From: a virus
Length of the DNA stretch: 64,000 bases
IMG/VR virus record: IMGVR_UViG_3300045972_000138
Coordinates: 1 to 64,000 of that record
Strand: one strand, 5' to 3'
The notes beneath the pieces were generated by a model. That model did not search any database and was not told the DNA's origin. It saw only the letters and a program-made list of their open reading frames with translations. The translations under genes were made by a program, and so were the position numbers. Shown here piece after piece: positions 8,524 to 8,756 of this stretch. Each line of letters opens with the position of its first letter. Positions within the stretch are counted from its first letter, which is position 1.

Positions 8524-8756
8524 ATCGAGAGTGGGTTCAGCAAACCAAATTATGCCGCAAGGCACTATGGCTAGTTGGGACTTGTGTTTATAAGCAGGAG
8601 CCGAAAGGTGTTGATAGCGTCACTAAACATGCGAAAGCAAACAATCCTAACAAACTACACGGGCAGTAGTTAACACGTCCAAAACGGTGGTAAGGCCCCG
8701 TAGTAATATTATATACCCGCAAGGATTATAATATTATCCCTTACACCACTCTGTTT
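8524..8756 (+). ncRNA. structured non-coding RNA 1
   Basis: About 230 nt with no credible ORF, behind a strong promoter. Visible pairings: GGTT/AACC (8534-8546); TGCC/GGCA capped by a GCAA tetraloop (8553-8564); CC-GAAA-GG (8601-8608); GTGTTGA (8608-8614) with TTAACAC (8670-8676), enclosing TGC-GAAA-GCA (8630-8639); and a 3' domain GTGGT+AAGG (8687-8695) with CCTT and ACCAC (8739-8749), with a 2-nt bulge and an inner 10-bp AU helix. Four possible GNRA loops in 230 nt argue for a tertiary-folded RNA. It is not a recognisable tmRNA, RNase P RNA or group I intron. It ends 10 nt before a second promoter. Confidence 0.7.

Follow-up and report, generated by a model that had tools for sequence, protein, structure and literature searches.

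A structured phage RNA as the probable Y-RNA-like partner of the phage's own Ro60-like protein

Introduction

The DNA analysed here (the window) comprises positions 1 to 64,000 of IMG/VR record IMGVR_UViG_3300045972_000138, a virus record of 237,609 bases with many tRNA genes. Within it, 880 noncoding bases separate an open reading frame (ORF) for a BLUF-domain protein (8020-8448) from a small ORF (9331-9609) and hold sigma-70 promoters at 8488 and 8760, both near-perfect. Which RNA follows the first of these promoters, and does it belong with the Ro60-like protein encoded further downstream? A preliminary description had proposed that a structured RNA, here called RNA1, stands apart with a promoter of its own, distinct from and possibly antagonistic to a second RNA ("RNA 2") behind it. 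We report that RNA1 is a real, conserved, covarying RNA resembling a transcription unit, and that it most likely serves the Ro60 protein of this phage as a Y-RNA-like partner.

Animal and bacterial Ro60 proteins hold Y RNAs by their lower stem; these RNAs control access to the protein or tether PNPase to it (PMC4726728, PMC7790460). TROVE proteins have already been recorded in certain jumbo phages by a comparative study (PMC7824862). In Listeria phage CKA15, as much as 67% of the phage transcripts come from noncoding regions beside a Ro-like gene, whose product is detected in purified virions; the authors suggest, giving no motif, that the highly expressed intergenic RNAs may be Y RNAs (PMC12282133).

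Results

RNA1 is a conserved and covarying RNA

RNA1 comprises the following features:

8488-8517, + strand: sigma-70-type promoter of unit 1 (TTGACA-18-TATACT, 11/12)
8528-8753 (approximate true extent), + strand: unit 1 (RNA1), Y-like RNA, with closing helix P1 followed by G
8536-8543, + strand: conserved internal-loop motif UUCAGCAA (family consensus U-W-C-A-G-C-A-A), directly 3' of the P1 5' strand
8553-8564, + strand: P2 hairpin with GNRA loop (UGCC-GCAA-GGCA), double-sided changes in 3/4 pairs
8654-8670, + strand: P3 hairpin (ACUAC/GUAGU), from the covariation alignment
8684-8744, + strand: H-type pseudoknot, P5 8684-8689/8696-8701 and P4 GUAAGG 8690-8695/CCUUAC 8739-8744

Contigs encoding the neighbouring DUF2828 protein were fetched and searched with RNA1, which gave clear matches upstream of the DUF2828 gene in about 12 contigs; ten full-length copies, all from other phage contigs and all preceding this gene, make up the covariation set. 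A five-helix structure (P1, the GNRA hairpin P2, the hairpin P3 and the pseudoknot P4/P5) is kept among these homologues: 95.4% of the cells are paired, compared to at most 50% once the partner is slid, and double-sided changes occur at 14 pairs (46 cells) versus 7.9 (13.6) in shuffles. More specifically, the 7-bp long-range helix that had been proposed corresponds to P1, in which AGAGTGG (8528-8534) pairs with CCACTCT (8746-8752); it is 100% paired in all ten sequences, with double-sided changes at three pairs, and joins the two ends of RNA1 into a stem beneath a separate outer domain, as in Y RNAs. The folding energy of RNA1 by itself is weak evidence (z -1.8, with 9/200 shuffles equally good); the case for RNA1 rests on covariation.

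The up to four GNRA loops announced by the preliminary description can indeed be counted by eye (GCAA at 8557-8560, GAAA in CCGAAAGG, GAAA in GCGAAAGC and GCAA in CCCGCAAGG), but only P2 is a clearly conserved hairpin, its loop being GAAA, GAGA or GCAA in relatives. The bulged 3' hairpin is present as well (about 8706-8737), inside the pseudoknot and with a sequence that differs among relatives; P3 and the pseudoknot itself had been overlooked. The promoter is kept upstream of the homologues, a TTGAC/TATA.T promoter lying 9-20 nucleotides before the closing helix in 10/11 of them, and RNA1 ends, as described, just ahead of the next promoter. No intrinsic terminator lies 3' of RNA1 on the + strand, so that transcription may read through and the product be processed later; a single continuous transcript would be compatible with RNA1 as a unit.

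RNA1 shares its closing module with the units that follow it

Comparing RNA1 with RNA 2 for common motifs, as had been proposed, revealed a shared module, made of the closing helix, followed directly by U(U/A)CAGCAA (UWCAGCAA), and of a G after the 3' strand. Since this module recurs three times in RNA 2, the latter is in fact three units, which gives four consecutive copies with RNA1:

8760-8788, + strand: promoter of units 2-4 (TTGACA-17-TATAAT, 12/12)
8803-8951, + strand: unit 2, AGGAUAG-g-UUCUGCAA ... CUAUCCU-G, with a counterpart in locus L004 (5697-5823)
8964-9059, + strand: unit 3, AGAUUAGG-UACAGCAA ... CCUAAUCU-G, with homologues in 11 other loci
9072-9308, + strand: unit 4, GGAUGAU-UUCAGCAU ... 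AUCAUCC-UG, with homologues in loci L010-L014

Thus, the row next to the phage Ro60 gene is headed by RNA1 and counts at least four RNAs, all small and structured. What stands of the earlier interpretation is a separate structured RNA whose body differs from those in RNA 2; its ends do not, and antagonism finds no support, as the closing module is common to both and all units point to the same Ro60-like gene. The order of the units varies among relatives (loci L013 and L014 versus the window); where the phages are more distant (about 50% protein identity), units both short and long lie directly downstream of the Ro gene.

Note that a fifth, short unit carrying the module is found elsewhere in the same genome, at about 178,967-179,025 (G000; L202 382), between tRNA-Leu and tRNA-Thr, and that a possible sixth lies near 230,479. 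When the motif was relaxed, scanning the entire genome gave many chance matches, and units lacking any part of the module were discarded.

The neighbouring gene encodes a Ro60-like protein

The gene to which the row points begins 0.9 kb downstream of RNA1 on the same strand:

9689-11116, + strand: Ro60-like protein (Pfam DUF2828 and DUF7788; MIDAS motif DVSGS)

The AlphaFold model of this protein (pLDDT 77, 19 sequences) aligns with Ro60 1YVP over nearly its full length (VIA-align Z 21.3 over 406 residues) and with Deinococcus radiodurans Rsr (Z 14.6), whereas unrelated vWA domains reach at most Z 10.8. A Foldseek search returned 9L5Y (3e-7) as the closest match, followed by 1YVP and 2I91 (about 1e-5). 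The predicted structure thus displays the helical-repeat ring and the vWA domain with a MIDAS motif that characterize Ro60/TROVE proteins; D, S and S of DVSGS are invariant. The closest match, the Ro60 of Thermus phage phiLo (PDB 9L5Y), is likewise a phage protein, but the entry is a protein-dimer structure whose title names no partner RNA. This Ro60 family occurs in 681 of 50,697 phage records, including those of FelixO1, KVP40 and Listeria phages, where its members are usually annotated as hypothetical or RNA-binding proteins.

The module and the Ro gene are linked across phages

A strict unit descriptor was scored on 44 dereplicated Ro loci and on control contigs. Strict units adjoin the Ro gene in 31/44 loci, 43 in the sense and 0 in the antisense orientation, and their density is 0.48/kb near the gene versus 0.03/kb at distal positions and 0.02/kb in the control contigs. 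In a gene-blind test, the DNA pattern of the module was scanned over IMG/VR without using the Ro gene, and 80 loci were kept among the matches listed, to which the following counts refer. The Ro gene lies inside the fetched locus in 23/80, always on the same strand, and elsewhere in the contig in 23 of 50 others that were searched whole; among the whole-searched contigs of at least 50 kb, it is present in 16/19. With a reversed pattern as a control, Ro was found in 2/50 contigs, and in 1/10 when the contigs were 50 kb or longer. The RNA1 pattern itself occurs in 14 IMG/VR contigs, and all true copies (12/12) stand beside Ro on the same strand; the other two are protein-coding chance matches. 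Nine matches in bacterial genomes also resemble chance matches in coding sequences, without the CTG end. One set of pair counts, being conditioned on pairing, was excluded as proof of covariation. Altogether, RNA1 is encoded with a Ro60/TROVE orthologue, as a Y RNA would be, both as its neighbour and through this linkage across phages that differ widely.

Units in named phages carry permuted-tRNA inserts

In Enterococcus phage EfsSzw-1, three units upstream of Ro carry the module, and two of them hold a permuted tRNA (T arm, acceptor, D arm); these two match the YrlA family with E values of 4e-9 and 1e-5, both under the gathering score. A permuted tRNA is the hallmark of bacterial YrlA Y RNAs. 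Units of FelixO1 and Cronobacter phage S13 combine the module stem with an insert of the permuted-tRNA type, an identity that rests on ARAGORN reading the inserts as tRNAs after re-permutation with an artificial anticodon arm, which 1/4 swapped controls also passed; Rfam gave these inserts no score. In Salmonella phage FelixO1, four unannotated module units lie amid tRNA genes (L285 6763-7590), with the stem AGACCNN/NNGGUCU, and the last one holds the permuted tRNA. Vibrio phage KVP40 has a 240-nucleotide unit right after tRNA-Ser (L203 603-842; stem AGACAUU/AAUGUCU, with UACAGCAA), which makes it a candidate large Y-like RNA of a model phage.

Listeria phage AG20 has three tandem units immediately upstream of Ro. 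A noncoding stretch of about 660 bases upstream of Ro (L286 3373-4032) contains a strong promoter; it is closed by AAGGAAAUUUG/CAAAUUUCUUUU, without a clear UACAGCAA, and likely corresponds to the most transcribed region of the related phage CKA15 (26,236-26,727). The noncoding regions of CKA15 could not be mapped onto units.

Other genes around the row

Three further features of the window surround the row:

5628-6674, + strand: RNA ligase (PF09414/PHA02142), a possible RNA-repair partner
8020-8448, + strand: BLUF-domain (blue-light sensor) protein, Pfam E 6e-22
13794-13885: tRNA-Ile (tat) called by ARAGORN, of unusual shape, with an odd-looking anticodon position and length

BLUF domains are rare in phages, with two weak matches only among the 50,697 phage records. 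The tRNA-Ile call is not found by an Rfam scan.

Discussion

RNA1 most likely binds the neighbouring Ro60-like protein, as judged from the linkage of the module to the Ro gene and from the likeness to Y RNAs. Both the binding of Ro60 and the processing and function of RNA1 are inferred. Several observations weigh against this assignment. The stem, with its bulges, by which animal and bacterial Y RNAs are bound is not recognisable in the phage stem, for which no formal stem-only model was run; the phage consensus is instead AGGAU../..AUCCU-G plus UWCAGCAA. The Rfam search that had been suggested returned zero families over 8440-9340, at the gathering score as well as at E values up to 5, the covariance models of GOLLD, ROOL and other large phage and bacterial RNAs included; similar DNA was not found for the RNA region by blastn against named phages and plasmids either. 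RNA1 harbours no tRNA-like domain. Moreover, among the matches listed, the Ro gene was not found in 27/50 module contigs searched whole, most of which are short fragments, three (50-114 kb) being not so short; and no clear unit lies within 5 kb of Ro in mycobacteriophage MsGreen, Stenotrophomonas phage DLP_6, Aeromonas phage phiAS5 and Cronobacter phage GAP32.

If RNA1 were a structured leader, or a cis-regulatory element for the downstream genes (ORF 9331-9609 and Ro60), it would not act in trans, and its position within its own clade, close upstream of the Ro gene and on the same strand, would be accounted for. Elsewhere, however, the units lie downstream of Ro or far off amid tRNA genes, their number ranges from one to four, a terminal helix closes each of them on itself, and neither a terminator nor a ribosome-site switch was seen; we regard this explanation as improbable. 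The presence of units amid tRNA genes (in FelixO1 and at 178,967-179,025 of the same genome), some with tRNA-like inserts, would rather suit a tRNA-like decoy or an anti-defence RNA acting alone, Ro being merely a neighbour in a tRNA/RNA-repair island. Yet the part common to the units is the closing stem with UWCAGCAA and not the tRNA-like part, and the co-occurrence of module and Ro far exceeds the control, which makes such a solitary role quite improbable too. Finally, the differing unit order in L013/L014 and in the window is what a DNA-level element would produce, such as a recombination or cassette site that shuffles the units, with the hairpin forming in single-stranded DNA. The 43:0 strand bias, the conserved promoters, the GNRA loops and the covarying pseudoknot suit an RNA, and a DNA element appears highly improbable.

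As a putative Y-RNA-like partner of Ro60, RNA1 can be compared to known systems. Like YrlA (RF02553), it lies beside a Ro60 gene and its paired ends form a stem with a separate outer domain, and the two EfsSzw-1 units that match YrlA have the same stem as RNA1; unlike YrlA, whose model does not match it at E values up to 5, RNA1 has a body built of a pseudoknot and a GNRA hairpin in place of the permuted tRNA, and its closing-stem motif differs. The D. radiodurans Y RNA/Rsr system (RYPER with PNPase) likewise pairs a Ro60 orthologue with a partner RNA able to tether a nuclease (PMC7790460, PMC4726728), but the phage genome has at least four to five unlike RNAs and no known nuclease link. The RNAs beside CKA15_055 are likewise intergenic, strongly expressed and located upstream of a Ro-like gene, although in another phage group and with no motif, structure or family given (PMC12282133). 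As far as we could find, the docking stem and outer domain of RNA1 have not been described before and constitute a new architecture, in which a pseudoknot replaces the tRNA mimic and the docking stem is non-canonical.

Because Ro60 grips the lower stem of Y RNAs elsewhere, we take the closing helix with UWCAGCAA as the putative docking site. The outer domain, which varies between a pseudoknot plus GNRA hairpin in RNA1 and a permuted tRNA in other phages, would then be an adapter setting what the bound Ro60 does: it might cover the central hole of the protein, recruit a nuclease or RNA ligase, or serve as a tRNA decoy. The likeliest role would be in surveying, degrading or repairing tRNA or rRNA in infected cells, since the region holds tRNA genes and the RNA ligase and since RtcB, RNA ligase or tRNA nucleotidyltransferase is encoded nearby in other phages.

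More tentatively, large phages could carry a modular Ro60 ribonucleoprotein, in which one Ro60 is combined with varied Y-like RNAs that have a phage-specific docking stem and exchangeable adapter domains, and which may even be packaged in the virion, to be active as soon as infection begins. Several RNAs that differ from one another appear to serve a single phage protein. A shared RNA handle beside this Ro60 family points to the RNAs that it likely binds, and the role of Ro60 and Y RNAs becomes testable in fast, well-known phage systems.
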